Translations under genes and position numbers: made by a program
Part shown: piece after piece, positions 38,919 to 60,315 of the stretch
How the letters are laid out: each line of letters starts with the position of its first letter
How positions within the stretch are numbered: the first letter of the stretch is position 1
Notes under the pieces: model-generated
Database searches by the model: none
Seen by the model: only the letters and a program-made list of their open reading frames with translations
What the model was told of the DNA's origin: nothing
Assembly (NCBI GenBank): GCA_019637915.1
Contig: JAHBUV010000001.1
Span: 2,326,565-2,390,564, forward strand
Length of the DNA: 64,000 nt
Source of the DNA: Pseudobdellovibrionaceae bacterium
GTDB lineage: Bacteria > Bdellovibrionota > Bdellovibrionia > Bdellovibrionales > Bdellovibrionaceae
Reading direction: 5' to 3'

Positions 38919-39071
38919 GGCCGTTCCCCGGCGTCCCTCCCGGACGCGGCATTTTTTGCCCCATCTCCTCTCTGGTCCTTGGCCCCTGACAAGTGATTGA
39001 CTCACGGTTTTTCCGAAGCGCGTGAGAAACTGATTCCATCAACAGCCATCGCTCTGTCAGGAGGACTGGAA

Positions 39072-41340: not shown

Positions 41341-41478
41341 ATCCCCCCTGTTTTTCCATCCGTCCGCCTTTCCATATTTGATGCGCAATGCCTCAAACAT
41401 CTTTCTTCATTGATCTTTGTCCTGGATCTCGTTTTAATTTTTTTCGCGGAACAAGAAACATCCAGGAGGAAATCATCC

Positions 41479-42528: not shown

Positions 42529-42558
42529 TCGGCTCCTCACCGAAACAAGGAGATTCCA

Positions 42559-43482
42559 ATGAAACATCTTCTGATCGTGATCGGTGCTCTCTCCGTCGCA
42601 GCCCTGAGCGGCTGCGGCGGCGAAGGAAGCCTGAACGCGAGCGGTGCCGCCGATCTGACCCAGGTTCAGTCGGCGACTTTCAAGCAGCGCATTCAGGAAC
42701 TTGAAGGCCGCATCAAAGTGAAAAACACCGGCGACGCTCCGACCGTCGGTGTGCCGGCGGGAATCGGATCGCTGGTGGTGGATCCTTTCGCCGCCTGCAA
42801 AACGGCCGTGATCAACCAAAGCCAGGACGGGGACTCCGACAGCATCTACGACCACATGAAATGGCAGTACGATTGCTCGGGCCTCGACAATGGCGGTGGC
42901 GGTATCAAAGCGGTGAAGGGCACTTACGAAGTCATCGACTCCGACCCGACGGTGAAGTCGGTGGATGGCGGCGGCTACGTCATGAACTTCAACCTGAATG
43001 AAGTCAGCGAAACGCCTCCGACCCACTACTTTGACACCAGCTGGATCGGGACGATCCGCCGCGCCAATCTCGGTGGAGTCCTGGTCGATGAGGCGGATTT
43101 CAAATATGTGGTGAAAGGGAAGGAACACGGGGTCAAGTTGGACTGGTCGTGGCGCACGCAATCGCGTGGGGAAATCACTCCGGCCGACATGGCTCACCCC
43201 TACAACAAGGGCACGCAATCCTTCAAAGGTTTTTACCAGATGAAGGGTGATGTGGGAACGGATACCAATCTGGTTCAGCTTCCCCCCGTGGACGTGACCT
43301 ACAAAATCGAAGCCGACGGGATCAAGTATGAAGACACCGGCACTTCGGGTTGCGTGGGTTATTACAACGCGGGCTCGTACAAGTTCACCGATGGTCAAGG
43401 CAACGTTCTGTCCATCGATTACGCTTGCACGAATCCGAGCGTGACCTACAAGTACAACGGCGAAGCCATCACGGGTTGGTAA
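42559..43482 (+). CDS. Lipoprotein of unknown function
   Basis: A 307-residue lipoprotein with signal MKHLLIVIGALSVAALSGC (Cys19). The mature part has a coiled segment (FKQRIQELEGRIKVK, about 42-56) followed by a beta-rich domain with cysteines in FAACKTAV, QYDCSGLD, SGCVGYYN and DYACTNP. It starts 30 bases after the barrel gene and shares a terminator with it, so the two are probably co-expressed and may interact. Confidence 0.82.
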   Translation: MKHLLIVIGALSVAALSGCGGEGSLNASGAADLTQVQSATFKQRIQELEGRIKVKNTGDAPTVGVPAGIGSLVVDPFAACKTAVINQSQDGDSDSIYDHMKWQYDCSGLDNGGGGIKAVKGTYEVIDSDPTVKSVDGGGYVMNFNLNEVSETPPTHYFDTSWIGTIRRANLGGVLVDEADFKYVVKGKEHGVKLDWSWRTQSRGEITPADMAHPYNKGTQSFKGFYQMKGDVGTDTNLVQLPPVDVTYKIEADGIKYEDTGTSGCVGYYNAGSYKFTDGQGNVLSIDYACTNPSVTYKYNGEAITGW

Positions 43483-43511
43483 GACCCGGGCTTGAAAAAG
43501 TTCGAACAACG

Positions 43512-43545
43512 AAAACCCGGTTCCGAAAGGACCGGGTTTTTGCTT
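43512..43545 (+). terminator. Intrinsic terminator after the barrel-lipoprotein pair
   Basis: AAAACCCGGT (43512-43521) pairs with ACCGGGTTTT (43531-43540), followed by TGCTTTT. It lies 30 bases after the lipoprotein stop. Confidence 0.9.
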
Positions 43546-43608
43546 TTCCGGCGAAGAAGGTTTTCAGCCCGAGTCCCTCTTGACTACAATCGAAGCAGGG
43601 GGACATCG

Positions 43609-45762
43609 ATGCGTTGGTGGTGGCTGCTCGGCACGCTGTTGTTGGTTCATTGCGCCGGTTGGAAGAAAACGGAAGAGGCGAACCGCCTGCCGGCCGGCAA
43701 GGTTCTCGATTCCAGCGGCTATCTCTATGATCCCAACGACCGCTCCTGCGACGGATTTCCGCGCCTGATGGTGGACACCATGCCCGGCACCTGCCTGGGG
43801 CTGGTGATGCCGCGTGATCGCGCCCTGGACCCCGCCAGCAAAAAGGGCTTCATCAAGCCCCGCACCATCCTGTCCTTGAAGGGCACGGACGATTTCCTGG
43901 TCGTCGACATGGGCGGTTGGGCGCCGAAGAACGGCCGTCTTTTCTGGATGCGCCGAGCGCCGAACGGCGGTTACGACTTGAAGCTCGTCAAGGACGCCCT
44001 GGACAACCCCCATGGCCTGTCCTACGGGCCCGACGGTTTGATTTACCTCGGGGAAAAGCAGCGCATCGTCCGTTTTCAATTCCACAACGGCCGCCTGCTG
44101 AAAGAGCAGGCCGTGATCACGGACCTGGCCGCCTTCGAGGGGCATATGCACCCCCTGGCGCAGTTCGTGTTCGATCCGCGCAACGGCGATCTGTACATCA
44201 ATTCCGGCGCGCCCAGTGATCATTGTTTCGTGCGCGAGACCGGCAACTACGCCGTGTGCCCGGAGGAATTTTCCCAGGGCATGGGCAGTATCCTGCGCGT
44301 GCCCTGGGCCCACATCAAAAACCCCCCGGCCGGCGGGGCGCGCTTCCGGGAGGTGGCGGCCTCGGGCCTGCGCAACTCCATGGCGATGGTCATTCATCCG
44401 TCGGGTGTGCTCGTCCAAGGGGAAAACAGCCGCGACTTTCCCGAAGCGGAAGAACCCTACGAGGAGATCAACGTCGTCGACCTCAGCCGGCGCGGTTTTC
44501 ATTACGGCTGGCCCTATTGCTACAACTTCCACGCGACCTCGCCGGAGTGGCTGTTCTCCGAGAACGCCAAAAGCCCCCTGCGCCGGAACTTCACGAAGCC
44601 CATGGACTGCGCGAAGCCGGTGGGCTTCGATCAGGCCGGCGGCTACATGGCGCCCCACGCTTTGATGCCCCCTCATGTCGCGCCCTTGCACATGAATTAT
44701 TATGACGGCGCCATGTTCGCGGATCTGTTCGGCGGGCAGCTCCTGATGTCGTGGCACGGGCACCAGCCCTCCGGCCATCGCTTCGTCGCTTACCGGGTGG
44801 ACGAACGGGGACGCCCGCTCACGGAAAAAGCCCGGGACACCGCCGCGTATCGTTTCAACCGCCGCGGCGCCTGCCCGGCTTCGACGCGTTTTCAGCCCCG
44901 TAGCGGCATGATCCGCCACGCGCCTTACACGGAGGTGATCTCCGGCTGGTGGGCGCTGAAAGGCGCGCGTCCCCGGGGCGCCCCCGTGGGCTTCACGCAA
45001 GGCCGCGACGGTTCGCTGTGGATCGTGGAGGATCGTGAAAACCGCGTGGTCGTGCGTCTGGCCCGCGACAACGGCCATCAGGGTTCAGCTTGCGCCAGCG
45101 GCGCGGGCGAAGCGCCCGATCCGGGCATGGAGCTGCTGGCCTGGCGCCACGCCGTGAAGTCCGATCCGGTCTCGCTGGACGCTTACCAGAAGATCCAGCA
45201 AAAACTGATTCAGCCTTATTGCACCGGCTGCCACGGCGACCTGAAAAACGCCGGCCTCGCCGACGATCGCTTCAGCAATCTGGATTTTCTGGTGAACAAC
45301 GATTGGCTGGAGGCGGGCGTCCCGGAGCGCAGCCGGTTCTACGGCGCCATCGCGCGCCTGGAAGGCTATACCCCCATGCCCCCGCGGGACAAAAAACAGT
45401 TCCATCGGACGCGGGAAGGGGATGAGATCCTTCGCGTCGTGCAGGCTTGGATCCGTGGTCTGCCCGCGGACCTCGACCAACGGCAGAAGAAATCCGTGAT
45501 CTCGGCGCTGCGCAATCTGCGCGCGCGTCCCGGCGATGAGGGCGGCGAGGTCTGCGGGCGCCTGCTCGCGCAGGATCCGGTCTTCGTGGACCCGCGTCCC
45601 TCGTCCCTGATGAGCGCCGGGGGCTTTGACTGGGCCAAAGTCTACCTGCCGCCGGGTCACAGCCGTCTGTTCCCGGGCAAATGCCCCTTGCCGGAGGACG
45701 GCGTTTATTACGTCGCCGTCCGCAAAACGGGCACCGCGGCTTCCGTGATCCCCGTTTTCTGA
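43609..45762 (+). CDS. Exported six-bladed-propeller protein with a cytochrome c domain
   Basis: A 717-residue protein. The N-terminal two thirds resemble PQQ-type sugar dehydrogenases of the sorbosone/glucose family (DNPHGLSYGPDGLIYLGEKQ, GHMHPLAQFVFDPRNGDLYI, then RGFHYGWPYC). A later segment IQPYCTGCHGDLKNAG (about 535-550) has the CxxCH haem motif. The signal MRWWWLLGTLLLVHC has a Cys at 15, but His at -1 is unusual for a lipobox. It could oxidise an alditol or sugar in the periplasm; the substrate is unknown. Confidence 0.8.
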   Translation: MRWWWLLGTLLLVHCAGWKKTEEANRLPAGKVLDSSGYLYDPNDRSCDGFPRLMVDTMPGTCLGLVMPRDRALDPASKKGFIKPRTILSLKGTDDFLVVDMGGWAPKNGRLFWMRRAPNGGYDLKLVKDALDNPHGLSYGPDGLIYLGEKQRIVRFQFHNGRLLKEQAVITDLAAFEGHMHPLAQFVFDPRNGDLYINSGAPSDHCFVRETGNYAVCPEEFSQGMGSILRVPWAHIKNPPAGGARFREVAASGLRNSMAMVIHPSGVLVQGENSRDFPEAEEPYEEINVVDLSRRGFHYGWPYCYNFHATSPEWLFSENAKSPLRRNFTKPMDCAKPVGFDQAGGYMAPHALMPPHVAPLHMNYYDGAMFADLFGGQLLMSWHGHQPSGHRFVAYRVDERGRPLTEKARDTAAYRFNRRGACPASTRFQPRSGMIRHAPYTEVISGWWALKGARPRGAPVGFTQGRDGSLWIVEDRENRVVVRLARDNGHQGSACASGAGEAPDPGMELLAWRHAVKSDPVSLDAYQKIQQKLIQPYCTGCHGDLKNAGLADDRFSNLDFLVNNDWLEAGVPERSRFYGAIARLEGYTPMPPRDKKQFHRTREGDEILRVVQAWIRGLPADLDQRQKKSVISALRNLRARPGDEGGEVCGRLLAQDPVFVDPRPSSLMSAGGFDWAKVYLPPGHSRLFPGKCPLPEDGVYYVAVRKTGTAASVIPVF

Positions 45763-45876: not shown

Positions 45877-45892
45877 TGGCATCGCCGTTGCT
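45877..45892 (+). promoter_or_regulatory. Candidate sigma-54 promoter for the glycosylation operon
   Basis: TGGCATC-GCCG-TTGCT closely fits the -24/-12 consensus TGGCACG-N4-TTGCT, with the invariant GG and GC separated by ten bases. It lies 47 bases before the TPR-gene ATG at 45939. Confidence 0.55.
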
Positions 45893-45938
45893 CTATCCCC
45901 TGTCAGGCCTCATGGATCGAGGCCGGGGAGTCCACAGC

Positions 45939-46910
45939 ATGATGCTAGAAAATGAACTCCGACGGACGTCCAGCGTGGACGCTCAGGCGCCCGCGCGTCC
46001 GTCGGCCCCGTCCACCCGGAACACCGACATCGTCACGGGAACTTTGCTCGCCAACGCGCGCGTTTTGCGCCAGCACGGCGAATTGTCCCTGGCCCTCAAC
46101 CTTTTGCGCGAAGCCAGCAACCGCGATTCGAAAAATCCGGCCGTGCTGCTGCCCCTGGCGGAAGTGCTGGAGGAAGCCGGACGCCACGGGGAGGCCCTCA
46201 AGGTCCGCCAGGTGATGGCGCGTCTGAGTTACGGTTTCGAAAACGTTTTCCAATTGGCGCAGGCCCTGTATCGCATGAACCGCGATCAGGAGGCTCTGCA
46301 CTCTTACTACGAGGCCCTGTCCCTGCTCACCGAAGACGATCCGTGCCAGTTCGAGATTCACAAGAACATGGGGAACATCTTCGTGCGCGGCGGTGATTTC
46401 GAAGGCGCGGAGGAATCCTACAACCGCGCTTACGGACTGAACGCCACGTCGGACATCCTGATGGTCAACCTCGGGACCCTGGAGGTGCAACGCGCCGACA
46501 AGGGCCGCGCGCTGTCCTGTTTCCGCCAGGCCGTCGAGATCAATCCCCTCAATGAAAAAGCCTGGACGGGATTGGCGATGATCCACAATGAGTTCGGCGA
46601 TCATGACCTGGCCTGGGGCAATCTCGAGCGCGCCCTGGATCTGAACCCCGGCAACCGCACCGCCGTGCATTTGGCGGCCTTGTGGGCCACGCGGGACCAG
46701 AGCCCCCAGCGCGCCATCCCCTGGATGGAAAAATACCTGGCGAGCGTCGAAAGCGACGAGGAAATGTCCCTCGTTCTGGTGAACCTCTTTTGCTCGGCCG
46801 GCCACCTGGATCTGGCCATGATCGAATCGGGACGGGTCCTGTCCTGGAATCCCGGCCGCGAGGACGTCAAAAAACTCCGTGACCGCCTGCACGGCCTGAT
46901 GGGGGAGTGA
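45939..46910 (+). CDS. Tetratricopeptide-repeat protein
   Basis: A 323-residue protein with about seven TPR helices pairs, for example HKNMGNIFVRGGDFEGAEES (about 146-165) and LTGLAMIHNEFGDHDLAWGN-type repeats after it. Such TPR proteins often escort glycosyltransferases. The start at 45939 (MMLENELRR) has GGGGAG eight bases upstream; a GTG at 45876 would overlap the sigma-54-like element. It heads a run of eleven coupled genes to 55719. Confidence 0.82.
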   Translation: MMLENELRRTSSVDAQAPARPSAPSTRNTDIVTGTLLANARVLRQHGELSLALNLLREASNRDSKNPAVLLPLAEVLEEAGRHGEALKVRQVMARLSYGFENVFQLAQALYRMNRDQEALHSYYEALSLLTEDDPCQFEIHKNMGNIFVRGGDFEGAEESYNRAYGLNATSDILMVNLGTLEVQRADKGRALSCFRQAVEINPLNEKAWTGLAMIHNEFGDHDLAWGNLERALDLNPGNRTAVHLAALWATRDQSPQRAIPWMEKYLASVESDEEMSLVLVNLFCSAGHLDLAMIESGRVLSWNPGREDVKKLRDRLHGLMGE

Positions 46911-47437
46911 TGCAGTTCGAAAGAGATTGGGTGCGCCGTCAGAACGTCTCTTCCCCCGACGTGGTGATCCTGGGCCTGGGCGCCGGTCATCACGTGAAGG
47001 CCTGGTTGGACCTGCACCCGCAGGCCCGCGTCGTCGTCATCGACACCAAGTCCTACCAGCACGATTTTTTCCGGATGGCTTATCCCGAGATCCAGGACCG
47101 GGTGGAGATTCACGCCATCGGTTGCCTGGACGAACTGCGCGAGCACGCCGTCATGAACAAAATGATCCGCGACCTGCCGTCGGTTCTGCTGTTTGAGCCC
47201 GCGGTCGGCGCGCACCGGGAGATCTTCGACGAGTATTTCAGGCTGCTAACCGGCCGCAGCCGCGAGGGCCTGGAGTTTTTCCTGCGCCATCTGGGCTTCG
47301 AAATCCGGCAACCCATCGAGGTCTGCGATGCCGGGCGTTTGCTCACCATCAAGGACCTGGGACTGGTGATCGACACCCAGCACGCCGGTCATCCGCGCGC
47401 CGCCGTCGTGCGGGTCCTGCGGGAGCTTCTGGTTTGA
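46910..47437 (+). CDS. Rossmann-type domain resembling the Maf N-terminal region
   Basis: A 175-residue protein with VVILGLGAGHHVKAWLDLHP (about 18-37) followed by ARVVVIDTKSY, a nucleotide-binding-like opening that resembles the N-terminal domain of Maf-type flagellin glycosyltransferases. The catalytic DUF115 region is absent. ATG at 46910 overlaps the TPR stop (TGATG). Role is inferred from context: accessory to the glycosyltransferases that follow. Confidence 0.6.
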   Translation: MQFERDWVRRQNVSSPDVVILGLGAGHHVKAWLDLHPQARVVVIDTKSYQHDFFRMAYPEIQDRVEIHAIGCLDELREHAVMNKMIRDLPSVLLFEPAVGAHREIFDEYFRLLTGRSREGLEFFLRHLGFEIRQPIEVCDAGRLLTIKDLGLVIDTQHAGHPRAAVVRVLRELLV

Positions 47438-49038
47438 AAATCCTGGTGCTCTCCCTTTTGCGAGTGGGCGATCTGGTGCAGCAGCGGCCGCTTTTGCAGG
47501 CGCTGCGCCTCGCCCATCCCGCCGCGGAGATCCACCTGCTCACGAACAAATCCGTGGGCTCGATCCGTCCTTTGTTCTGGGAAGTGGACCTGTGGCACGT
47601 GTTCGACCGCGATCATTTGCAGCAATCCGTCGGCACGGCCTCGATCCCGCTGACGCGTCCGGTGCGCGACCTGGAAGACATGCTGGGGGAACTGGCGGGC
47701 GAGCACTACGATCTGCTGCTGAATTTCACCCACAACCGCCTGAGCGCCCATCTGGCCTCGCTCATCCCGGCCACCCTCAAAAAGGGCCTGCTGGCGGAAG
47801 GCCTGGCGTTTCGTTCTTTCGAAAACAATTGGTTGCGCCATTTCAACGAGCGCTTTGGCGCCCGTGAGGCGAGCCCCTTTCATTACGTGGACATGCTGGC
47901 GGGTTCCTTCAACCTGCCGGCGGTCCGCCCGCAGGTGCCGCGGGCGCGCGGCCCTCTCGTGCTTTTGCAGCCTCTGACCAGCGACTTAAAAAAGGAATGG
48001 GGCCTGGCCAACTGGCGCCGCCTGCTGGACGAGGCCCGGCAGGAATTCCCCGAACTGGATTTCCGCGTTCTGTGCGCGCCCTTCGAGGCGGACCGGCTCG
48101 GCCAGTTTTTCGATCGCGAGGAACTGGAGATCGCCGACTGGACGCAATTGCAGATGCTGTTGCGGCAAAGCGCGCTCATGATTTCCGGGGACACCTCGGT
48201 CAAGCATTTGGCGGCGCTCAGCGGCGTGCCGGTTTTGGAAATCGCCCTGGGAAGTTCCGATGCGGTGAAAACGGGCGCTTTCATGCAGAACGCCTGGATC
48301 GTGCAATCGCGGGTCGATTGCGCGCCTTGCCCGCCGTCAAGCCCCTGCCGGCGCCTGTCGCATCTCTGCGGGGAGACCCTGCCGGTGCGCGACGTCCTCT
48401 CCTGGACCCGCGATTTGCTGCGCGGGAAAAAACCGGCCGCCGCCGGCTCGGGCCCGGCGTTTCGTTTGTTTGAGAGTCTCTGGTCGCCCCTCCTTGGATG
48501 GAAGCTTCGTCCCGTGGGCGGTGACCAAAAAGAGTTCCTCTGCGACGCCGCCGACCAGATCCTTTGGAAGATGTTCCTGGACGGCGAAGAGCGCCCCCCG
48601 GTGGGATCCGCGGCGCAAGAGTTGAAAAGTTTGAACGCGCAGCCCTCCGTGATGGAAGCCGCTCTGGAAAACCTGCTGGGAGAGCGCCGGGAATTGCTGA
48701 ATCTGTTCGAACAAACGGAAAAGCGCCTGACCACCTTGTCGCGCCTGTGTTTCGCGGACGGATTCGATCCCGTGCTGCTGCAGGCCGAGCGCCGCAGCTT
48801 GGGCGCGCAGATCCCCCTGAACAAACGCGTGCGACGGCACTGGCAAGAGATCGTCGAGGCGGGAACGCAGCCCTTCTCGTCGCCCCTGCACTTTTTCGGA
48901 GCGGTCCGCCGCAAGCTCGACGATGTCCGCCGCCGCCTGGAAATTCAAAATCAATTGATCCAACAACTCCGGGAAGGAGGCAAACCCCATGGACAAGCAA
49001 CTCGAGAATCACCTGTCGGAGGCCTTGAAACGCCTTGA
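47434..49038 (+). CDS. Glycosyltransferase family 9 protein with helical C-terminal extension
   Basis: A 534-residue protein. Residues 1-340 have the GT9 (heptosyltransferase) pattern: KILVLSLLRVGDLVQQRPLL at the start, LVLLQPLTSDLKKEWGLANW (about 172-191) and SGDTSVKHLAALSGVPVLEI (about 250-269). Residues about 380-520 are helical (LGERRELLNLFEQTEKRLTT), with a counterpart in the GT9 at 49134. The start is TTG at 47434, overlapping the previous stop, with GGGAGC upstream. It probably transfers a sugar in flagellin or envelope glycosylation. Confidence 0.85.
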   Translation: MKILVLSLLRVGDLVQQRPLLQALRLAHPAAEIHLLTNKSVGSIRPLFWEVDLWHVFDRDHLQQSVGTASIPLTRPVRDLEDMLGELAGEHYDLLLNFTHNRLSAHLASLIPATLKKGLLAEGLAFRSFENNWLRHFNERFGAREASPFHYVDMLAGSFNLPAVRPQVPRARGPLVLLQPLTSDLKKEWGLANWRRLLDEARQEFPELDFRVLCAPFEADRLGQFFDREELEIADWTQLQMLLRQSALMISGDTSVKHLAALSGVPVLEIALGSSDAVKTGAFMQNAWIVQSRVDCAPCPPSSPCRRLSHLCGETLPVRDVLSWTRDLLRGKKPAAAGSGPAFRLFESLWSPLLGWKLRPVGGDQKEFLCDAADQILWKMFLDGEERPPVGSAAQELKSLNAQPSVMEAALENLLGERRELLNLFEQTEKRLTTLSRLCFADGFDPVLLQAERRSLGAQIPLNKRVRRHWQEIVEAGTQPFSSPLHFFGAVRRKLDDVRRRLEIQNQLIQQLREGGKPHGQATRESPVGGLETP

Positions 49039-49171
49039 GACGGCCTATCGGGAGATTCTGAAGAGCGGTGATCTCAGCCGCGAAGGCGAAGCCGTGAAAG
49101 TTCTGGCCGAACTCATTCAGGAGCAGGTGCAAAATGAAGATCCTCGTTCTTCAGCTCGCCCGGTTGGGTGA
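48989..49171 (+). CDS. Small helical protein between two GT9 genes
   Basis: A 60-residue, highly charged helical protein (QLENHLSEALKRLETAYREI). A strong ribosome-binding site, GGAAGGAGG at 48972-48980, lies inside the end of the preceding GT9 gene. It overlaps that gene by 50 bases and the next GT9 gene by 38. Such double overlap plus the strong site argues that it is a real gene. It could bind one of the glycosyltransferases. Confidence 0.65.
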   Translation: MDKQLENHLSEALKRLETAYREILKSGDLSREGEAVKVLAELIQEQVQNEDPRSSARPVG

Positions 49172-50585
49172 CATCTACATGTCCTGGCCCGCGTTGCGGG
49201 CCCTGCGCCGCACCCACCCCGGGGCGGAGATCCATCTGCTGGTGCGCCCGCGTTTCGAAGCCGCGACCCGCGGTTTGAACGCCGTCGATCAGGTGCGCGA
49301 GCTGCCCACGGCGGAACTTCTGGAGCCCCTCTCCGGCGCCGCCGACCGCGACGCGGAAGCGCTGGGACGGGTGTCTTTTTACCTCGAGACTTTGCGTCGC
49401 GAGAACTACGACCGCGTCATCAACCTGTCCTTTTCGCCCCTCTCCAGCTGGATCGTGAAATCCGTCGCCGCCGAAACGGCGGAGGTGAGCGGGTACACGC
49501 GGCACACGGACGGGTATCTGAAGATCGCCGACCACGTGAGTTCCTTCTTTTACGCGCAGGTCGGCGTCAACAGACCGAACCGCGTGCACCTGACGGACCT
49601 GTTCGCCACGATGATCAATGTCGACCTCAATGAAAACGATTGGGGTCCGCCGGATCTGCCGGTGAAGGATTTCGGGTTGCCGGATCGTTACGCGGTCCTG
49701 CACGTCGGCGCCAGCGAGAGCGGCAAAAGGGTCGCGCCTTTCCAGTGGGCGCGCGCCTTGCGCCGTTTCCACGAGGACGTGCCGGATTGTCCCGTGGTGC
49801 TGATCGGCGGCCCCGGGGAAAAGGCCCTGGCCAATGAAATCCGCGCCAACGTCAACACCGTGTCTTTGATCGACCTGACGGGCGAGACGGCGGTGGAGGA
49901 TCTCTTCGGCGTGATCGCCAAATCCCTGTTCCTGATCGGCGCGGACAGCGCCCCGATGCACATGGCGGCCCTGACGGGCACCCCGACCTTGAACGTCAGC
50001 TGCGGCGACGTGAATTTCTGGGAGACGGGCCCGAAAGCCCCGGCGGCCTGGATCCGTCGCTTCAAGACGGCGGCGGATTTTTCCTCCGAGCAGGTCGGCG
50101 GCGCCATGGCGGAACTGGTCCTGCGGGGCCGGGTCAGCGGTTGGATCCAGCATCTGGGCGGCGTCCCCGCTTATCGGACGGAGGAAAAAAACCGCGATGA
50201 TTTCGCCTGGAATTTGATCCAGGCCCTGTACCTGGGCGCCGATTTCCCGGTGGCGGAAGAGATGATCTTCATCCAGGCCGTGGAGAAACTGACGGAGATG
50301 AACGCCGTGGTGCTCGAGCAGCTGCGCAACCCGCAGGTGAAAGTCGCGGCGCTGGCCCCCTTGCTGGATCGCGCCGACGAGGTGCTGACGGCGATCGCGG
50401 ACCTCTGTCCCGAGAGCGGCGTTCTGGTGCGGTGGGTGCAGACGGAAAAAACGCGCATCCCTCCGGGTTCGCCGGAAGCCGTCCGCCAGGCGATGACGGA
50501 TCTTCACGCGCGCTTCGGTCAGGTCCTGAATCTCTATGAGCTGACGGAAACGGCGGAAGAAGGCTCCGGTCATGGAAAAGTTTAA
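49134..50585 (+). CDS. Glycosyltransferase family 9 protein, second copy
   Basis: A 483-residue GT9 protein: KILVLQLARLGDIYMSWPAL at the start, YAVLHVGASESGKRVAPFQW (about 186-205), VVLIGGPGEKALANEIR (about 222-238) and IGADSAPMHMAALTGTPTLN (about 268-287). The final 140 residues are helical and share the pattern LC-x-E...Q-x-E-K/R with the extension in the GT9 at 47434. It is coupled at both ends (overlap of 38 bases upstream, 14 downstream). Confidence 0.87.
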   Translation: MKILVLQLARLGDIYMSWPALRALRRTHPGAEIHLLVRPRFEAATRGLNAVDQVRELPTAELLEPLSGAADRDAEALGRVSFYLETLRRENYDRVINLSFSPLSSWIVKSVAAETAEVSGYTRHTDGYLKIADHVSSFFYAQVGVNRPNRVHLTDLFATMINVDLNENDWGPPDLPVKDFGLPDRYAVLHVGASESGKRVAPFQWARALRRFHEDVPDCPVVLIGGPGEKALANEIRANVNTVSLIDLTGETAVEDLFGVIAKSLFLIGADSAPMHMAALTGTPTLNVSCGDVNFWETGPKAPAAWIRRFKTAADFSSEQVGGAMAELVLRGRVSGWIQHLGGVPAYRTEEKNRDDFAWNLIQALYLGADFPVAEEMIFIQAVEKLTEMNAVVLEQLRNPQVKVAALAPLLDRADEVLTAIADLCPESGVLVRWVQTEKTRIPPGSPEAVRQAMTDLHARFGQVLNLYELTETAEEGSGHGKV

Positions 50586-51237
50586 GGTCCTCGGCGAGGA
50601 GCTGCGGGGGCACTACCAACCCGGGGCCCTGCTGCAGGACGTTTTCAGCGACATCGAGGAGGAGTTGCGCCGCGAAGAGCTCGTGGTGTGCCAATACATC
50701 GTCAACGGCATGGCCTTGGCCGAAAAGGAGGAGGCGCGTTTCGCGTCCCTGCCTTTGAGCGAGATCGAGAGCCTCGAATACGTCGCGGAGAAGTCGCAAA
50801 CCCTGTTGAACGACGTCGTGAACGGCTGGCTGCTGGCTTTGCCGGAACTGATGAAGGGCGCCGAAACCTTGTCGGAGCGTTTGAGGGGCGGTCAGGTCAA
50901 GGGCTTGATCAAAGCCGTTTATGATCTCGCGGAAAACTGCGAGTTCCTGATTTCGAGCCTGGCTTCCGTCCGCCAATTGATCGGTGACGAAAAGGCGGTG
51001 GCGGCCCTGGAGGGATTCGATCGTTTGGAGATCATGACCCGTCGAAGCCTGGAGGAGGCCGTGCGGCGTCTGGAGGCTCAGGATTTGTTTCATCTCTCCG
51101 AAGTCCTCGAGTATGATCTCAACCATTGCCTGGAGGAATGGCGGCGCGTGCTGCTCCAGTTCCGGGAGATGGGGGCCGGCGGTGGCGGAAACGCCTCAAA
51201 CACGCATTCTGTGGGTCGGGGGAATTCCCCCCACTGA
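50572..51237 (+). CDS. Helical protein of unknown function
   Basis: A 221-residue protein made of long helices (LQDVFSDIEEELRREELVVC, about 21-40) with no recognisable domain. The last 20 residues are low-complexity Gly/Asn, in the zone where it overlaps the histidine-kinase gene by 56 bases. It sits between the glycosyltransferases and the kinase and is likely part of the same system, for example an export chaperone or kinase partner. Confidence 0.7.
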   Translation: MEKFKVLGEELRGHYQPGALLQDVFSDIEEELRREELVVCQYIVNGMALAEKEEARFASLPLSEIESLEYVAEKSQTLLNDVVNGWLLALPELMKGAETLSERLRGGQVKGLIKAVYDLAENCEFLISSLASVRQLIGDEKAVAALEGFDRLEIMTRRSLEEAVRRLEAQDLFHLSEVLEYDLNHCLEEWRRVLLQFREMGAGGGGNASNTHSVGRGNSPH

Positions 51238-53143
51238 GATCCCGCCGGATCTCCAGGTCCTTTCTTTGCCTGAAAACGGAGTTCCCCCTCCGGCGCGCTG
51301 GCCGGAGGCCGACCTCACGGTGATCCGCTGGGGTCTGGCGGAGTCGCGCCGCTGGGCGGAGGAGTGGCGCCGGCATTTTCCGGAAGCCCCGTTGGCCCTG
51401 TCGGCCGCGCAATTTTCCGCCGACGACCTGCGCGTCGGCATCAATCAACTCTGGTCGCTGGGTTTCATGACCGACGCGCGGCTGGCGAGCGAGCTGCCCG
51501 CGGCCGCCGAAAAAGCGGCTGAGCGCCGCCGGCAGCGCGGGGCCCGCGACCGCACGCTGCAGAATTTCGGGCGCCGCAACCGCGAGCTCGAGCGCCTGAC
51601 GGAGATCCTCGAGAAAACCGTCGTCGAGCGCACGAGCAACCTCGAGGCCTCCACCCGCGAGGAAAAGGAAAAACTCGCCCGCGAGCGCCAGCTGATCCGT
51701 TTTTTGAACGAGATCTCGCTGCAAAGGTCGACGGGCGATATCTTGCGCGTGGTGCGAAGGGAACTGCGCCGCTTCCACAAGATCCAGAACCTCGTCGTGG
51801 CTTTGCGGGACACCGACCAACGCACCGAATTCATGAGTTTCCGCGGCGATCAGATTTTGCGCCACGAGGGTTCCGACAAATGGCCCGGTAAGGAGGCCGA
51901 CGACCGCGAGCGCCAGCAGCTGTTCGCCAACCATTTCGGCCGTCCCTTCCACCGCACCTTGTTTTTCCCGTTGGATCTCCACTCCGCCGGGGAGGGGCTG
52001 CTGGCGGTGGAGTACTCCCTGATGGGGGAGGAGGAGATCGGCCTCATCACGGATCTCCTGAACGAACGGCTGCGCCCGGTGGGCATGGCGGTGGAGCGGC
52101 TTTTCCTCGAGGACCGCTTGCGCCGTTTCGCCGGCCGCTGGGAGAGGACCTTCGACGGGTTCCGCGATCCCATCGCGGTCATCGATTCGCGGATGAAGGT
52201 CCTGCGCGGCAACCGCGCTTTCGGCGCGGGGCCCGGGCGCCGCAGCTGCCACGAGCTTTTCGCCGGCAGCGACAAGCCCTGCGAGGCCTGTCCCGTCAGC
52301 GTCCAGCCCGAATCCGCGCAGACCCTGCAGGGCACGGTGCGCATCGATCGCCGCGTTTACCGCCTGAGTTCGTGGCCCGTGCAGGAGCCACGCGCCGTCC
52401 GCATCAGCGGCCGCGTCACCCATTACACCGACATCACCGAGTCGCGCGAGCTGTACCTGCGCATGCTCCAGAGCGAGAAGATGAGCGCCATCGGCTCCCT
52501 GGCCGGCAACATTGCCCACGAGCTGAACAATCCGTTGACCGGCATCCGCTCCCTCGCGCAGGTGCTCGAGGCCGAGGCGACGGACGAGGGGACCTTGAAG
52601 GAGGACCTCCATCAGATCGAAAACGCCGCTCGCCGCTGTCAGACGATCATCCGGCACCTGCTCGACTTCACCCGCGGCGGCGAGGGACCCATCGTGCCGG
52701 TGAGCCTGGATGAAGTGGTGGAGAGCACCCTGCCTTTGCTGAAGACCGTCCTGCGGCCGCACCGCCTGGAGCTGCTGCTCACGGCCCGCAACGCGAAGAT
52801 CATGGCGGAGCCGCACCTGCTGCAGCAGGCGGTGTTCAACCTGATCAACAACGCCTGCCAGGCGATGAAGGACACCGGTCGCATCGGCGTCGCCTCCAAA
52901 GTGACGACGGACAACGAAGTCGAATTGCGCATCATCGACACGGGGCCCGGCATCCCGGAGGAAATCCGCGGCCGTCTGTTCGAGCCTTTTTTCACGACGA
53001 AAAAAGAAGGCGACGGCACGGGCCTGGGCCTGAGCACGTCGCGCGCCATCGTGGAAAAATACGGCGGGCGCATCGAGTTCAACAGCGTGCTGGGCCAGGG
53101 CACCGAGTTCATTTTGAGATTCCCGCGCCGGGAGGGCCCGTGA
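51182..53143 (+). CDS. Histidine kinase with degenerate receiver, GAF-like and PAS domains
   Basis: A 653-residue soluble kinase. Residues 1-110 look like a degenerate receiver (RILWVGGIPPTEIPPD), followed by a coiled coil (RNRELERLTEILEKTVVERT), a GAF-like part, a PAS domain with CHELFAGSDKPCEACPV (about 357-373, cysteines that could bind metal or sense redox), the H-box GNIAHELNNPLTGI (about 442-455) and ATP-binding NLINNACQAM, DTGPGIP and GTGLGLS. GTG at 51182 is chosen for the GGGAGATGGGGG upstream. The receiver gene follows. Confidence 0.88.
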   Translation: MAETPQTRILWVGGIPPTEIPPDLQVLSLPENGVPPPARWPEADLTVIRWGLAESRRWAEEWRRHFPEAPLALSAAQFSADDLRVGINQLWSLGFMTDARLASELPAAAEKAAERRRQRGARDRTLQNFGRRNRELERLTEILEKTVVERTSNLEASTREEKEKLARERQLIRFLNEISLQRSTGDILRVVRRELRRFHKIQNLVVALRDTDQRTEFMSFRGDQILRHEGSDKWPGKEADDRERQQLFANHFGRPFHRTLFFPLDLHSAGEGLLAVEYSLMGEEEIGLITDLLNERLRPVGMAVERLFLEDRLRRFAGRWERTFDGFRDPIAVIDSRMKVLRGNRAFGAGPGRRSCHELFAGSDKPCEACPVSVQPESAQTLQGTVRIDRRVYRLSSWPVQEPRAVRISGRVTHYTDITESRELYLRMLQSEKMSAIGSLAGNIAHELNNPLTGIRSLAQVLEAEATDEGTLKEDLHQIENAARRCQTIIRHLLDFTRGGEGPIVPVSLDEVVESTLPLLKTVLRPHRLELLLTARNAKIMAEPHLLQQAVFNLINNACQAMKDTGRIGVASKVTTDNEVELRIIDTGPGIPEEIRGRLFEPFFTTKKEGDGTGLGLSTSRAIVEKYGGRIEFNSVLGQGTEFILRFPRREGP

Positions 53144-53493
53144 AAATTCTGATCGTGGACGACGAGGTGCTGGTGCGCCGCTCGCTGGAGCGGGTGGTGA
53201 GAAAACAGGGCCACGAGGTGTGGGAGGCCGCCGACGGGGTGGACGGGCTTTCCAAGTGGCGCGAGCACGATCCCGATCTGGTCTTTCTGGACGTGCTGAT
53301 GCCGGGGTTGACAGGACCGCAGGTTCTGGAGGAAATCGGTCCATCCCGGCGCGCCAAGGTCATTCTGATGTCCGCGTACCTGGGGCAGGAAAAAATCTCC
53401 GAAGGATCCGTGCTGGCCGTCGACATGTTTTTGCCGAAACCCTTCGAGGATGTTTTTGAAATCGTGCGACGCGCGGAGGAGTTGTTGTCATGA
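53140..53493 (+). CDS. Single-domain response regulator
   Basis: A 117-residue CheY-like receiver with acidic pocket IVDDEVLVRRSL, phosphorylated Asp in LVFLDVLMPGLTG (about 45-57), Ser/Thr in ILMSAYLG (about 73-80) and the lysine in MFLPKPFEDV (about 95-104). There is no output domain. GTG start overlaps the kinase stop, so the two are a cognate pair. The output must be by protein contact. Confidence 0.93.
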   Translation: MKILIVDDEVLVRRSLERVVRKQGHEVWEAADGVDGLSKWREHDPDLVFLDVLMPGLTGPQVLEEIGPSRRAKVILMSAYLGQEKISEGSVLAVDMFLPKPFEDVFEIVRRAEELLS

Positions 53494-54053
53494 GAATCAT
53501 CGCCGGCCGCTGGAAGGGCCACCCCCTGGTCTCTTTCCAGGCCGATCACATCCGTCCCACCACGGACCGCGTGAAGGAAACCATGTTCAACATGATCCAA
53601 TTTTATTTGGAAAACGCCCGCGTGCTGGATCTTTTCTGCGGCACGGGAAATCTGGGTCTCGAGGCTTTGAGCCGCGGCGCCGGCCACGTCCTGTTCGTGG
53701 AAAAACATCCGAAGTCACTGCAGATCACCCGCGACAACCTGCAAAAGCTCAAGGCCGGTCGCGACGAGTACGAGCTGCAGTCCCAGGACGTTTTGCGTTT
53801 CCTGAAAACGTACACGGGCGAGCCTTTCGATCTGATTTTCGCCGATCCGCCTTTCACGGAAGCGATGGCCCACGAAGTCATGGAGCACGCGTCCGCCAGC
53901 GCCGCCTTTGGAGCAGAAACTCTGATGATGATCGAGTCGGCGCGGCGCGAACGCATCGATGACGAGTATGAAACCCTGCGCAGGGTGGACTCCCGGGAAT
54001 TCGGGGACAAAATCCTTTCTTTCTACCGGAAAAAAGACCATAAAGGGTCATGA
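53490..54053 (+). CDS. rsmD: 16S rRNA (guanine966-N2)-methyltransferase RsmD
   Basis: A 187-residue methyltransferase: MRIIAGRWKGHPL at the start, RPTTDRVKETMFNMI (about 27-41), SAM motif VLDLFCGTGNLGLEALSRGA (about 46-65) and the catalytic FADPPF (about 114-119, DPPF). It is followed by coaD, the usual order in many bacteria. Start overlaps the response regulator stop. Confidence 0.95.
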   Translation: MRIIAGRWKGHPLVSFQADHIRPTTDRVKETMFNMIQFYLENARVLDLFCGTGNLGLEALSRGAGHVLFVEKHPKSLQITRDNLQKLKAGRDEYELQSQDVLRFLKTYTGEPFDLIFADPPFTEAMAHEVMEHASASAAFGAETLMMIESARRERIDDEYETLRRVDSREFGDKILSFYRKKDHKGS

Positions 54054-54532
54054 GCCGAATCGCTGTTTACCCCGGGAGTTTCGATCCCATCACCGTGGGC
54101 CACGTCGACATCATCACGCGCATCGCGGGCCTCTTCGACGAGGTCATCGTCCTGGTGTCGCAGTCTTCCCAGAAGAAGGCTTTGTTCACGGCGGAAGAGC
54201 GCAAAGCCCTGATCGAAAAAACGCTGAAGCACATCCCCAACATGAAGGTCGATATCTTCGAGGGACTGACGACGGATTACGTGCGCCAGAAAAAAGCGCA
54301 GGTGATCGTGCGCGGCCTGCGCGCCGTCGTCGACTTCGAGTACGAGATGACCATGTCGAGCATCAACCAGAAACTGGCCCCGGAAATCGAGACCATGCTG
54401 GTGTTCGCCCGTCCGGAATTTTATTACATCAGCTCCCGGGGCGTGAAGGAAGTCGCCATGAACGGCGGCGCCTTGGAAGGACTCGTTCCCCCGACCGTCG
54501 TGCAACCTCTCTTGGAAAAGACCCGCAAATGA
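54050..54532 (+). CDS. coaD: Phosphopantetheine adenylyltransferase CoaD
   Basis: It adenylates 4'-phosphopantetheine in CoA synthesis. The 160-residue sequence has YPGSFDPITVGHVDIITRIA (about 6-25) with the TxGH nucleotide motif, RGLRAVVDFEYEM (about 88-100) and YYISSRGVKEVAMNGG (about 124-139), the ISSTxVRE counterpart. The start overlaps rsmD. Confidence 0.97.
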   Translation: MSRIAVYPGSFDPITVGHVDIITRIAGLFDEVIVLVSQSSQKKALFTAEERKALIEKTLKHIPNMKVDIFEGLTTDYVRQKKAQVIVRGLRAVVDFEYEMTMSSINQKLAPEIETMLVFARPEFYYISSRGVKEVAMNGGALEGLVPPTVVQPLLEKTRK

Positions 54533-55719
54533 TGCTGTCCAAACGCGCCGCGAATCTGAAAGCTTCCCCGACCCTGGCTTTGGTGGCGAAAGCCAAGGAG
54601 CTGCAGGCCCAGGGGCATGACGTGATCTCCCTCACGGTGGGCGAGCCGGATTGGCCGACCTTGCCGGTGGCGGCGGAGGCGGGGATCGAAGCCATCCGCC
54701 AGGGTTTCACCAAGTACACGGCGGCGTCCGGCACGGTGGAATTGCGTCAGGCCCTGGCCGCCAAATACAAAAGCGAGCTCGGTCAGGACTATTCCCCCGC
54801 GGAGATCATGGTCGGCCCCGGCGCCAAGTTCGTGATCTTCTCGGCCCTGCAGGTGCTGTGCGATCCGGGCGATGAGGTCATTCTCCACACGCCTTACTGG
54901 GTGAGCTATCCCACCATGATCGAACTCGCCGGTGGCGTCCCGAAGATCGTCGAGTGCGGCGCGAAGGAGAACTACAAAATCGGCGCCGAGGCGCTGGAAG
55001 CGGCCATCACGCCGCGCACGAAGGCGTTTTTGTTCTGTTCGCCGAGCAATCCCACGGGCGTCATGTACTCGCGCGAGGAGCTCGCGGCCCTGGCCGAAGT
55101 GTTCCGCCGCCATCCGCGGGTGGCGATCTTGTCCGACGACATTTACAACCGCCTGGTTTTCGAGGGCGCGAAAGTGGCCCCGCACCTGCTGCATGTCGCC
55201 CCTGATCTGAAAGACCGTTTGATCGCCATCAACGGCGGGTCGAAAGCTTTCTCGATGACGGGTTGGCGCATCGGCTGGGCGGCGGGCCCGGGCCGGCTGA
55301 TCAAGGCCATGGGCGATTACCAAAGCCAGGCCACGGGGGCGCCGTCCTCCATCGCGCAGGCGGCGGCCCTGGCGGCGGTGAAAAACAGCGAAAAAGAGGT
55401 GGCCGAGGCCGTGAGCCTGCTGAAAAAACGCTGCGAGGCGGGACTCAAGGTCATCGGCTCCGTGCCGGGCTTTGAAGTGGCCCGCCCTGACGGGGCTTTT
55501 TATTTCTGGGTGAATCTGCGCCAAGTCCTCGGTCGCCGCCACAAAGACCGCGTGATCGAGAACGACTCGGTCTTTTGCGACATCCTCCTCAACGAGTATT
55601 TCGTCGCCACGGTGCCGGGGGCCGAGTGCGGCAGCCCGGGCTACATGCGCCTGAGCTTCGCCTGCTCCGAGTCCGACGTCGCCCGCGCCGCCGACCGCAT
55701 GAAAGAAATGCTGAGGTAA
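54529..55719 (+). CDS. Class I aminotransferase, aspartate-type
   Basis: A PLP-dependent aminotransferase of 396 residues. Landmarks are LTVGEPDWPTLPVAAEAG (about 35-52), TKYTAASGTVELRQAL (about 62-77), SPSNPTGVMYSREEL (about 174-188), LSDDIYNRL (about 202-210) and the PLP lysine in NGGSKAFSMTGWRIGW (about 230-245). The pattern fits the Ib subgroup of aspartate aminotransferases. It overlaps coaD by four bases and is directly followed by a palindrome. Confidence 0.93.
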   Translation: MMLSKRAANLKASPTLALVAKAKELQAQGHDVISLTVGEPDWPTLPVAAEAGIEAIRQGFTKYTAASGTVELRQALAAKYKSELGQDYSPAEIMVGPGAKFVIFSALQVLCDPGDEVILHTPYWVSYPTMIELAGGVPKIVECGAKENYKIGAEALEAAITPRTKAFLFCSPSNPTGVMYSREELAALAEVFRRHPRVAILSDDIYNRLVFEGAKVAPHLLHVAPDLKDRLIAINGGSKAFSMTGWRIGWAAGPGRLIKAMGDYQSQATGAPSSIAQAAALAAVKNSEKEVAEAVSLLKKRCEAGLKVIGSVPGFEVARPDGAFYFWVNLRQVLGRRHKDRVIENDSVFCDILLNEYFVATVPGAECGSPGYMRLSFACSESDVARAADRMKEMLR

Positions 55720-56733: not shown

Positions 56734-57240
56734 TTATTTCGCGCTTTCGCGCAGGAACAGCGTCATGTAGTGGCGGACCATGTACTCGAATTTGATCGGC
56801 TGGCCCTGGAAGGTCCAGATCACTTCGCCGAAAGGTCCCCACTTCGCTTCCACCAATTGCTCTTCCATCAACTGGTTGCCGGCCTGGGTTTCGTTGCCCG
56901 GGGCGGGGATGTAGTTGGTGCCGATGAAGTTGAAGCGCACGCCGATCTGGCCCGGGGCCTTCAGCGTGAAGATCATTTTGAAGCCGTTGCGGAACAGCAT
57001 GAAGTCGGCGTGGGTCTTGGCGATGCCGTAGACTTTCACGCGGCCCAGCGGCGAGGGCTTCAGTTCGTTGAAGGCGCTCGCCGAATCGACGAACTCCGTT
57101 TTCAACTGAAGCAAGAACTGCAGAGTCTCCTGCGCCAACACACGGTTGGCGTCGTAGCCGTACGACATGTCGATCAGGCCCGACTCTTCCATTTGTTGTT
57201 CCGACTTAACGAGGTCCTTGATCCAGGTGATTTTTTCCAT
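56734..57240 (-). CDS. Conserved-looking protein of unknown function
   Basis: A 168-residue protein with an N-terminal helical part (KITWIKDLVKSEQQMEESGL) and a beta-rich C-terminal part (FKMIFTLKAPGQIGVRFNFI). No signal peptide or family match. The start at 57240 (MEKITW) has GAGGAC upstream; the longer frame from 57279 would run through the promoter-like dyad. It is preceded by an operator-like dyad overlapping a TTGACA. Confidence 0.7.
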   Translation of the reverse strand: MEKITWIKDLVKSEQQMEESGLIDMSYGYDANRVLAQETLQFLLQLKTEFVDSASAFNELKPSPLGRVKVYGIAKTHADFMLFRNGFKMIFTLKAPGQIGVRFNFIGTNYIPAPGNETQAGNQLMEEQLVEAKWGPFGEVIWTFQGQPIKFEYMVRHYMTLFLRESAK

Positions 57241-57250
57241 AGCTGTCCTC

Positions 57251-57289
57251 AGTTTTTGGTCCCGCTGTGAACTTGTCAACAGTGGGACC
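57251..57289 (-). promoter_or_regulatory. Promoter with overlapping dyad for the 168-residue protein
   Basis: On the minus strand TTGACA (57279-57274) and, after 17 bases, AAAACT (57256-57251) make a promoter with a good -35 and poor -10. The -35 is embedded in an 11-bp dyad, GGTCCCGCTGT (57258-57268) with ACAGTGGGACC (57279-57289), one mismatch. This suggests regulation by a dimeric protein. Confidence 0.5.
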
Positions 57290-57357
57290 GTGCGGCAAGA
57301 GGCGAAATCAACCGGGAAAGTCCAAACTCCGCCATTTTTGCCGAGAAAAAGGGCTGC

Positions 57358-60273
57358 TCAGAACAAAGCGCCCATCTGCAAGGCCATGATCAAGGAGGCC
57401 CCGTCCGAGTGCGCGGCGGAGGAGGGCAGGGCGGCGCCCAGGATGAAATTCATCGGCAGGAAGTAGCCGATGGTCGTTTCCAGCCGCGCTTCGAAGCCGG
57501 TGCTGGCGAAAAAGCGGTTGCTGCGCACGGCTTCGAAGATCTCTTCGCGGGGGCGGTAGGCGAAGCCATCGAGGCTCACCACGTCGGCGAACAAGGCCCC
57601 GGTCAGCCGGGTCAGGTAAAAGGGATCCGTGCCGCTGCCTCTTTGGATCTCCTGCAAAGGCAAACGGTACTCGAAGTTGGCGTTGGTCACCGTCTTGCCG
57701 AAGAAATGTCCGACGCGGTAGCCGCGCATGACGTAAAGGGGGACCGCCGGGTCCGGCTGGAAAAAATAATTCGTCGTGGAGGCGCCGTAAATGGCGCCGA
57801 TGCGCTCCTGCGTGTACACCGAGTTCAGCCGCGCCATCAGGGCGTGGCGTTTGGGGAGCCACTTCGACCAGTAGCCGGCGCCGCTCAACAAATATTGTGT
57901 GTAATGGATGTGGTCCCGGGCCGGAACATAATGATTGGCGCCGCCCAGGAGGTAGCCGCCCTCTTCCGGGGAGATCTGCAGGCCCGAACGGCCGTAGTCG
58001 GCGTACATGGCGAGGAGCGCGGGACCGCTGCGCCGGGCCTCGGAGTCATGGTAAGAGGTCTTGCGCCAGTTCCATCCGAGGCTCGCGGACAGATAGCGGT
58101 TCACCTTGAACAGGTCCGGTTGGAAGGACAGGGACTGCACCTCGTTGAAGACCGGATCGTTCGTCGACACCAGGTAGGTGGCGTTGCGCGCCGCCGACGC
58201 CTGCGCCGACACCGGCCACACGTTGTTTTGGTAAGCGGCCGCGTAGGAGGCCTCCTTCAGGCCCGAGTCCCAGGAGCCCGCCAGGGAGTAGACGTGTTTT
58301 TTCAGCGGGTCGAAAGCGGAGGTGGAGGCGTCGATGACGAGGGAGTTGTTCACCGCCGACAGGCTGATGAAGGGGATCCAGTAGCGCGGCATCAGGTACG
58401 AGGCCGGGCGGTAGGCGGATTTCTCCACGGCGACGTCGGGATCGGGCGGATCCTGCGGGGGCACGGGGTAGCGGTCGGCGAACAGCGGCTGCACCTTCGG
58501 CAAACTCTCGGGCAGGACCGCCGCGCCCGCCGGCAAGCGGTGCACGCGCTGGCCCTGGGCGGTGAGCAGGGTCGTGTAGAGGTCGCCCGTGCGCGGGTCG
58601 AAGCCCGTCGAAAATGCCGAGCCCGCCACGTGGCTCAAGGGCTTCGCCGTCAGGAAATCGTCGCTGGCGAGATACAGGTTGTGCACGCCGTTCAACGAGC
58701 TCGTGAAGACGAGGCCGCGGGAGGTGGGCAGGGCGAATCGCGCGTTGGGGAAATCATCGAGAATGACTTCGGCGTGGGTCTCGCCGGGGCGCAGGCGCCT
58801 CAGGCCCTCCCAGGCGTCCGGCGAACGCACGGAGAACACCACGCTGCCGTCGGCGAGCTCCACGGGGAAAGAGGCGCGCTCCTGCCAGTCGCCCCGCCAG
58901 ACCGTCGTGGCTTTTTGGGCGGCGATGTCCCAGCGCGAGACGTGGGTGCGGGCGCCCTCGAGCCCGACGAAAAGAACGCTTTTGCCGTCGCGGCTGACGA
59001 AGGGCTCGCGGGCCCGGAGGCCGCGCGTGAGGCGGCTCGATTTCTCCGTGTCGAGATCGAAGAGCCAGAGGTCCGAGTAGGATTCGTAGCGGCTGACGAG
59101 ATCGACTTTGTCGAAGACCAGCTTGCGCCCGTCGGGGAACCAGCTGACGCGGGAGATGGAGCCGCTCGGCGGGGCGTCCTTGGTGGCGGGCTGCACGCTG
59201 TCCTCGCGGCGGTTGACGAAACGCTCCTCCTCGATCCCGTCAACAAAAGAAGATGAGGGCGTGCGGCGGCGGAAGATGCGGATGGAGCGGCGGTCGGTTT
59301 CATCGACGCTGATGAACGCCAGGCGCTCGCCGTCGGGGCTGACCTGCGGGCCTTGCGAGTACTGCGCCTGACCGCGCAGGCTTTCGCCTTCGGCGAAAGG
59401 GACGCGTTGCAACTGATCGAGCTGGGCCCGGGCGCGGCGTTCGGCTTCCGCCATGGCCGTCGCGTAGAAGCTTTCGTAATTGGCGCCGAGCAGGTCCCGC
59501 GCCGGGGCTTCGACGAAATAGGGAACGCGGCCGCCGTGGCGCTGGTGAAGTTGATCGAGAACCGCTTTGCCTTTTTGCGCCACGGCCTCGCTCCAAAAGA
59601 TCGAGCCGAACAGGTAGGCGCTCATGCCTTCCGGCCAATGCGGCAGAGGTTCGTTGATGCGGGCCAGGTCAAAACGCCCCAGCTCCCGGTTCTGGACGAA
59701 GGTCCTGATCGCGCCGTCCTGGTAAGCGGAACGCAGGCGGCCGCCTTTGGACACCATGCTCTCCACCTGCACGGCGGCGCCCTCTTTCCACCAGCGCGGC
59801 AGCAGCAGGTTGGGGGAAAGGATGGTGCCGAAGACGGACTGCAAAGGCTCCATCGTTCCCGACACGGCCTCGAAGGTCAGGACATGGGTGAATTCGTGGG
59901 CGACCAACTCCAGAATCCAATCGCCGCCTTCGCCGAGGCTGTCCTGCGGGCCCGGCAGCACGGGATAGATGAACAGATGATTGTAGGGCAGACGGGTGGC
60001 GTAGCCGTTGGTGAGATCGGTTTTGTCTGCCAGGACGACGATGGTTCGTTCGGGCACGTCGGTGAAAAGGGGCGCGACGCTTTGATAGGCTTTCTCGAGT
60101 TTGCGGGCGTAGAGGAGACCCATCTCTTGCTGCTCGGCATTAACGATGACTTCGAAGTGGGGTGTTCGCAAAGTGACGAATCGCCAATCGCTCGGGAATT
60201 CCTGGGCCAGCGAAGGCGGGGCGAAAAAAAGCAGACCCAACAAAGCTGATCGAGCGAGCGCGTGAAGTTTCAT
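57358..60273 (-). CDS. Outer-membrane zinc metalloprotease-like protein with propeller and barrel domains
   Basis: A 971-residue exported protein (signal near MKLHALARSALLGLLFFAPP, cleavage after SLA). Residues 35-260 are peptidase-MA-like: HEFTH at 126-130, and the third ligand in WWKEGAAVQ (Glu164), so the zinc site looks intact. Residues about 300-650 hold PD40/TolB-like blades (GPQVSPDGERLAFISVD, SRVSWFPDGRKLVFDKVD). Residues about 680-971 look like a beta barrel that ends in MGALF, a C-terminal Phe. ATG at 60273 is the likeliest of several nearby starts. Confidence 0.82.
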   Translation of the reverse strand: MKLHALARSALLGLLFFAPPSLAQEFPSDWRFVTLRTPHFEVIVNAEQQEMGLLYARKLEKAYQSVAPLFTDVPERTIVVLADKTDLTNGYATRLPYNHLFIYPVLPGPQDSLGEGGDWILELVAHEFTHVLTFEAVSGTMEPLQSVFGTILSPNLLLPRWWKEGAAVQVESMVSKGGRLRSAYQDGAIRTFVQNRELGRFDLARINEPLPHWPEGMSAYLFGSIFWSEAVAQKGKAVLDQLHQRHGGRVPYFVEAPARDLLGANYESFYATAMAEAERRARAQLDQLQRVPFAEGESLRGQAQYSQGPQVSPDGERLAFISVDETDRRSIRIFRRRTPSSSFVDGIEEERFVNRREDSVQPATKDAPPSGSISRVSWFPDGRKLVFDKVDLVSRYESYSDLWLFDLDTEKSSRLTRGLRAREPFVSRDGKSVLFVGLEGARTHVSRWDIAAQKATTVWRGDWQERASFPVELADGSVVFSVRSPDAWEGLRRLRPGETHAEVILDDFPNARFALPTSRGLVFTSSLNGVHNLYLASDDFLTAKPLSHVAGSAFSTGFDPRTGDLYTTLLTAQGQRVHRLPAGAAVLPESLPKVQPLFADRYPVPPQDPPDPDVAVEKSAYRPASYLMPRYWIPFISLSAVNNSLVIDASTSAFDPLKKHVYSLAGSWDSGLKEASYAAAYQNNVWPVSAQASAARNATYLVSTNDPVFNEVQSLSFQPDLFKVNRYLSASLGWNWRKTSYHDSEARRSGPALLAMYADYGRSGLQISPEEGGYLLGGANHYVPARDHIHYTQYLLSGAGYWSKWLPKRHALMARLNSVYTQERIGAIYGASTTNYFFQPDPAVPLYVMRGYRVGHFFGKTVTNANFEYRLPLQEIQRGSGTDPFYLTRLTGALFADVVSLDGFAYRPREEIFEAVRSNRFFASTGFEARLETTIGYFLPMNFILGAALPSSAAHSDGASLIMALQMGALF

Positions 60274-60315
60274 GCTCCACATGATCCCGGTAAAGCGATG
60301 CAACATCAATCGGGT

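Follow-up and report, generated by a model that had tools for sequence, protein, structure and literature searches.

Two GT9-family glycosyltransferases in a conserved late-flagellar gene module of the Bdellovibrionota point to flagellar protein glycosylation

Flagellin O-glycosylation, as known so far, mostly involves nonulosonic acids or other sugars, which are attached by Maf, FlmG or similar enzymes. True Mafs bind flagellin ahead of its hand-over to the chaperone, as reported for Maf1 of Aeromonas caviae (PMC4065374). FlmG of Caulobacter crescentus is a cytoplasmic flagellin O-glycosyltransferase whose TPR part binds flagellin (PMC7591256). A precedent for protein heptosylation is provided by the GT9-type enzyme TibC (PMC4358343). 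Here, a gene cluster in a 3.3 Mb genome of the Bdellovibrionaceae was compared with these systems and with WaaC and WaaF. The gene set is considered a variant of known flagellar protein glycosylation, in a combination that is to our knowledge previously undescribed; no description of it was found in the openly licensed literature, nor were experimental flagellin glycans in Bdellovibrio.

The window, the whole stretch of DNA analysed, comprises 64,000 nucleotides (Table 1). Eleven same-strand genes occupy positions 45939-55719 in the order TPR, Maf-like, GT9A, small, GT9B, hel, HK, RR, rsmD, coaD and aminotransferase. Each begins within or at the end of the preceding one, chiefly through 4-base stop/start overlaps, and the ORF coordinates bear out the first-pass annotation, which had described eleven overlapping or abutting genes. 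The genes are taken to be real and not chance ORFs because relatives across the order share the arrangement. The true start of HK is probably a GTG at 51182, not the first ATG of the ORF. The last three genes are housekeeping neighbours outside the module that are probably co-transcribed with it. Upstream, the names FlaG, FliD, FliS and FliT were assigned from the character of the sequences, their order and the conservation of their positions. Literature searches by locus tag found only fliS, which is Bd0612 in B. bacteriovorus HD100 (PMC9140294). The three flagellins, none of which has a long variable domain, are the presumed substrate of the module; flagellin homologues lie 5' of fliD in many relatives' loci. 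Relatives usually carry the TPR gene close behind fliT. Some 4.3 kb separate the two in the window (41410-45762), encoding a porin-like, a lipoprotein-like and a sugar-dehydrogenase-like protein (the last with a possible haem-binding end), and none of these three genes was found in the relatives' loci examined. Two minus-strand genes at 56734-60309, encoding proteins of 181 aa (without a family) and 983 aa, recur beside the DUF2802 gene in several relatives.

Table 1. Features of the window discussed in the text, with the observation that supports each.
Feature	Position	Strand	Supporting observation
Three flagellin genes	33170-33994, 34289-35113, 37537-38370	+	Flagellin N- and C-terminal D0/D1 sequence in the translations
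flaG	38544-38918	+	Orthologues immediately upstream of the module in order and phylum
fliD	38997-40439	+	Orthologues immediately upstream of the module in order and phylum
fliS	40471-40878	+	Orthologues immediately upstream of the module in order and phylum
fliT	40812-41303	+	Orthologues immediately upstream of the module in order and phylum
TPR protein, 323 aa	45939-46910	+	Several TPR families matched
Maf-like protein (maf), 176 aa, stand-alone Maf N-terminal-like domain	46907-47437	+	11/26 orthologues match PF20157
GT9A glycosyltransferase, 534 aa, variable C-terminal extension, four-cysteine finger	47434-49038	+	PF01075, E 6.5e-9
Small protein, 60 aa, nested between the two GT9 genes	48989-49171	+	39 orthologues in the same place
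GT9B glycosyltransferase, 483 aa, conserved helical C-terminal extension (~318-470)	49134-50585	+	PF01075, E 3.5e-13
hel, 221 aa, N-terminal alpha/beta part and helical bundle	50572-51237	+	AlphaFold pLDDT 90
HK, soluble histidine kinase	51113-53143	+	HisKA and HATPase_c matches
RR, single-domain response regulator, 117 aa	53140-53493	+	Response_reg, E 7.6e-22
rsmD, coaD, aminotransferase (aat)	53490-55719	+	RsmD and CoaD clear equivalogs

The locus resembles FlmG in combining a TPR part with a GT-B enzyme, here putatively tied to flagellin before chaperone-guided export. FlmG, however, is a single polypeptide, whereas the TPR protein (45939-46910) and the GT9 enzymes (47434-50585) are encoded here by separate genes. 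FlmG also uses pseudaminic acid, whereas GT9 enzymes stand here in a genome without a full-length NeuB, the best match being partial and weak (E 7.4e-10, positions 53-236). With the Mafs, the module shares its flagellar location and, in part of the orthologues, a match to the N-terminal domain PF20157 (Maf_flag10_N). This domain was matched by 11 of 26 orthologues of the Maf-like protein (best E 2.8e-5) and not by the window's own copy; the earlier call of a Maf-like domain stands for the family. Unlike the Mafs, the module has an N-terminal-like domain only, with GT9 partners in place of the catalytic domain PF01973, which gave no match in the 176-aa protein or its orthologues. Of 22 genomes, 20 had no PF01973 protein, and in the other two such proteins lay away from the module locus. 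Of the nonulosonic acid donor pathway of the Mafs, only the partial NeuB match was found in the window genome.

Both GT9 proteins match PF01075 (Glyco_transf_9) above the cut-off of 22 bits, GT9A with 35.9 and GT9B with 49.9. The AlphaFold model of GT9B (pLDDT 92) was compared with the PDB over residues 1-346 and has the WaaC/WaaF fold (1psw, 2h1h and 3tov; Z 26-27, rmsd 2.7-3.4 over ~300 residues); the heptosyltransferase fold of GT9A is supported by its profile. In orthologue alignments, Asp13, a Lys and a D-S/T motif are kept in nearly all copies of both proteins (D13, K187 and D253-T254 in GT9A). By position, the Asp and Lys would correspond to two residues described in TibC and WaaC, the catalytic Asp and the Lys that binds phosphate (PMC4358343). 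The likeness to TibC/AAH consists in these residues and a GT9-related fold, and membership in that group (BAHT) was considered and rejected on two points. GT9B has no N-terminal beta-barrel, its model starting at the first Rossmann strand whereas TibC aligns from residue 97, and the finger of GT9A is spaced C-x2-C-x5-C-x6-C whereas the BAHT iron finger is spaced C339/C342/C358/C370. The module also lacks an autotransporter neighbour, and GT9B matches TibC/AAH with a Z of 15 against 27 for WaaC/WaaF. The pair resembles WaaC/WaaF in fold and active-site motifs and differs from them in its C-terminal extensions, in its place in a flagellar operon and in scores far under the cut-offs of the LPS heptosyltransferase equivalogs.

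The extensions of the two enzymes behave differently. That of GT9B is kept in every full-length copy, and profile comparison shows it to be homologous to the extensions of GT9 proteins that other classes have at this position (probabilities of 91.5% and 70%). That of GT9A is dispensable: about a dozen loci have ORFs of 365-430 aa, in which it is greatly shortened or absent. The two extensions had been called homologous-looking; direct profile comparison gave a probability of 0.5%. An indirect link runs through a degenerate GT9 from another family (91% to the GT9A extension, 73% to that of GT9B), and homology is at best weakly suggested. The finger of GT9A has no conserved counterpart in GT9B, and in the GT9A of one genome of a Bdellovibrio-like genus, g6, it is gone as a clean deletion (L049:8696-10201). 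The finger was discarded as a marker of protein glycosylation, since other GT9 proteins of the window genome carry a similar four-cysteine motif. For hel, no reliable Pfam or PDB match and no significant Foldseek match was found; the VIA matches (Z up to 15) were to generic helical bundles, some of them designed proteins, and were rejected as a known fold. Its AlphaFold model has an N-terminal alpha/beta part besides the bundle, so that the protein is not purely helical.

Flagellar glycosylation, as the first-pass annotation had proposed, is pointed to by the co-occurrence of the genes, their linkage to flagellin-chaperone genes across classes, the intact catalytic motifs and the Maf-related domain. 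With moderate confidence, we favor the reading that this late-flagellar operon module O-glycosylates an exported flagellar protein in the cytoplasm, most likely flagellin and possibly FliD, before FliS-guided export. The TPR protein, the Maf-like domain or both would keep the substrate in place. Two pairs would then act on it: GT9A with the Maf-like protein, and GT9B with the small protein, the helical extension of GT9B serving as a docking domain. The sugar that they transfer would be ADP-activated and is probably ADP-heptose. One GT9 may initiate and the other extend, or each may have its own sites. The analogy with Maf and FlmG makes the cytoplasm the most likely place of modification, and export guided by FliS would follow.

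Which sugar might be used? The characterized GT9 enzymes known to us use ADP-heptose. The ADP-heptose gene hldE was present in all 22 genomes tested (22/22), a result that does not discriminate because hldE also serves LPS. With a full-length NeuB absent from the window genome, ADP-heptose is the likeliest donor. A broader proposal, which we find plausible but hold only tentatively, is a phylum-wide system for the heptosylation of flagellin, or of the cap, in which two divergent GT9s work with a TPR adaptor, a Maf N-terminal domain that stands alone and two family-less proteins. Such a system would belong to sheathed predatory bacteria and would have been cleanly lost in one genus. If true, it would be, as far as we know, without precedent as a GT9-based system of flagellin glycosylation.

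The same enzymes could instead modify a glycolipid, an LPS species bound for the flagellar sheath, with their place in a flagellar operon serving the timing of expression. GT9 is classically an LPS-core family, and the finger of GT9A recurs, as noted above, in GT9 proteins elsewhere in the genome. Moreover, the flagella of Bdellovibrio are sheathed, and the LPS of the sheath is reported to be unlike that of the outer membrane (PMC7175336). We nevertheless regard this explanation as unlikely, in view of the low LPS equivalog scores and of the tight linkage to the cytoplasmic chaperones FliS and FliT, the TPR protein and the Maf-type domain, which follows the logic of a protein substrate.

In one genus, represented by twelve genomes in the class search and read at five loci, the flagellar genes are present and maf, GT9A, small, GT9B and hel are all missing, while TPR-HK-RR is kept, with TPR and HK at most 18 bases apart or overlapping. 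The absence of the block represents a loss because outgroups have it, and the block is not essential to flagellation in this genus since flagellar genes persist there. The flagellins of the block-less genus had lost no Ser/Thr column and had no lower Ser/Thr content, although phylogenetic confounding makes this a weak test. These points weigh against the favored reading, as do the flagellins' lack of a long variable domain and the failure to find experimental flagellin glycans reported for Bdellovibrio. TPR-GT9 is retained, in most cases with hel, by some families outside the class that have no HK-RR pair at the locus. The signaling and glycosylation halves are thus separable, each being found at loci without the other, and the idea of a single system uniting the kinase and receiver with the GT9 enzymes was not upheld. 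HK and RR appear from this distribution to be a neighboring flagellar signaling pair and no fixed part of the enzyme system. The N-terminal region of HK is weakly receiver-like (42% probability in profile comparison). Within the enzyme block, maf accompanies the two GT9 genes in each of the 33 loci that have both, and it is kept in the single genome retaining GT9A alone. It is missing where GT9B alone remains, and the small protein stays with GT9B there. These few independent events suggest the putative pairings maf-GT9A and small-GT9B.

Several loci depart from the usual arrangement. In one genus, a protein of ~450-453 aa replaces the GT9 genes between TPR and hel (L116:10787-12145, L117:7613-8977); it was considered as a degenerate GT9 and rejected, with no profile support and no GT9 similarity detected. 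At two loci (L111:4104-5609, L114:8256-9701), a lone GT9 with a degraded active-site motif either follows TPR or stands between it and HK, and is a possible retained non-catalytic remnant. In another g6 locus, adjacent truncated GT9A and GT9B genes look as if their middle had been removed by an internal deletion, which may be real or an assembly error (L132:9736-11221).

It has to be asked whether the GT9-derived proteins act chiefly as scaffolds or chaperones while flagellin is handled or exported, having lost catalysis or keeping it as a secondary function. In one family, two genomes have a degenerate GT9 without the catalytic motif at the locus, and such a copy is found in the maf-adjacent position at 2/6 loci of another class, and the unrelated 453-aa protein substitutes for the GT9s in a genus that keeps hel. 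Catalytic residues, however, are needless for a scaffold and are kept in nearly all copies of GT9A and GT9B, so this role seems to us more unlikely still than a glycolipid substrate.

The gene set extends well beyond the window genome. GT9B was used to search 59 relatives, and 20-kb neighborhoods were annotated with profiles from the window's proteins. The order flaG-fliD-fliS-fliT-TPR-maf-GT9A-small-GT9B-hel-HK-RR-rsmD-coaD-aat-DUF2802 recurs in many families of the order. Among 46 loci spanning fliT to HK, TPR is present in 45, maf with two GT9 genes in 33 and the complete set in 27, counts that are approximate because some loci are rearranged or split (e.g. G018, G042). RR comes after HK in almost every locus of the order. 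Across the class, GT9B was detected in 84 of 119 genomes; no plasmid copies of it were found. Conserved co-occurrence, which the first-pass annotation had made a check on its reading, was thus found across the order. The 60-residue protein that it had described as nested between the two enzymes proved real, with conservation in 39 orthologues, and hel also has 39 orthologues in the first set of relatives. At the loci inspected in other classes of the phylum, the genes run fliD-fliS-(fliT)-maf-GT9-GT9-hel-HK-RR or fliD-fliS-fliT-TPR-GT9, with hel usual, and rsmD/coaD/aat do not adjoin the module. The gene set is ancient within the phylum. That unrelated genes were merely co-inherited in a frozen order, without a functional tie between the GT9 genes and flagella, is improbable and the least credible alternative: within the order, synteny is just as strong for rsmD, coaD and the aminotransferase, but in other classes these neighbors are gone from the module's side and fliD-fliS-fliT-(TPR)-(maf)-GT9-hel is kept, one genus lost the maf-GT9A-small-GT9B-hel block in one piece, and maf tracks GT9A through losses.

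A GT9-based, Maf-N-assisted module conserved across the Bdellovibrionota would bring protein heptosylation to flagella. Why would a sugar be placed on a filament that is hidden within a sheath? The module offers a tractable handle on flagellar assembly in predatory bacteria, with two deletable genes, easily purified flagella and a laboratory predator, and the genus without the block provides a natural control.
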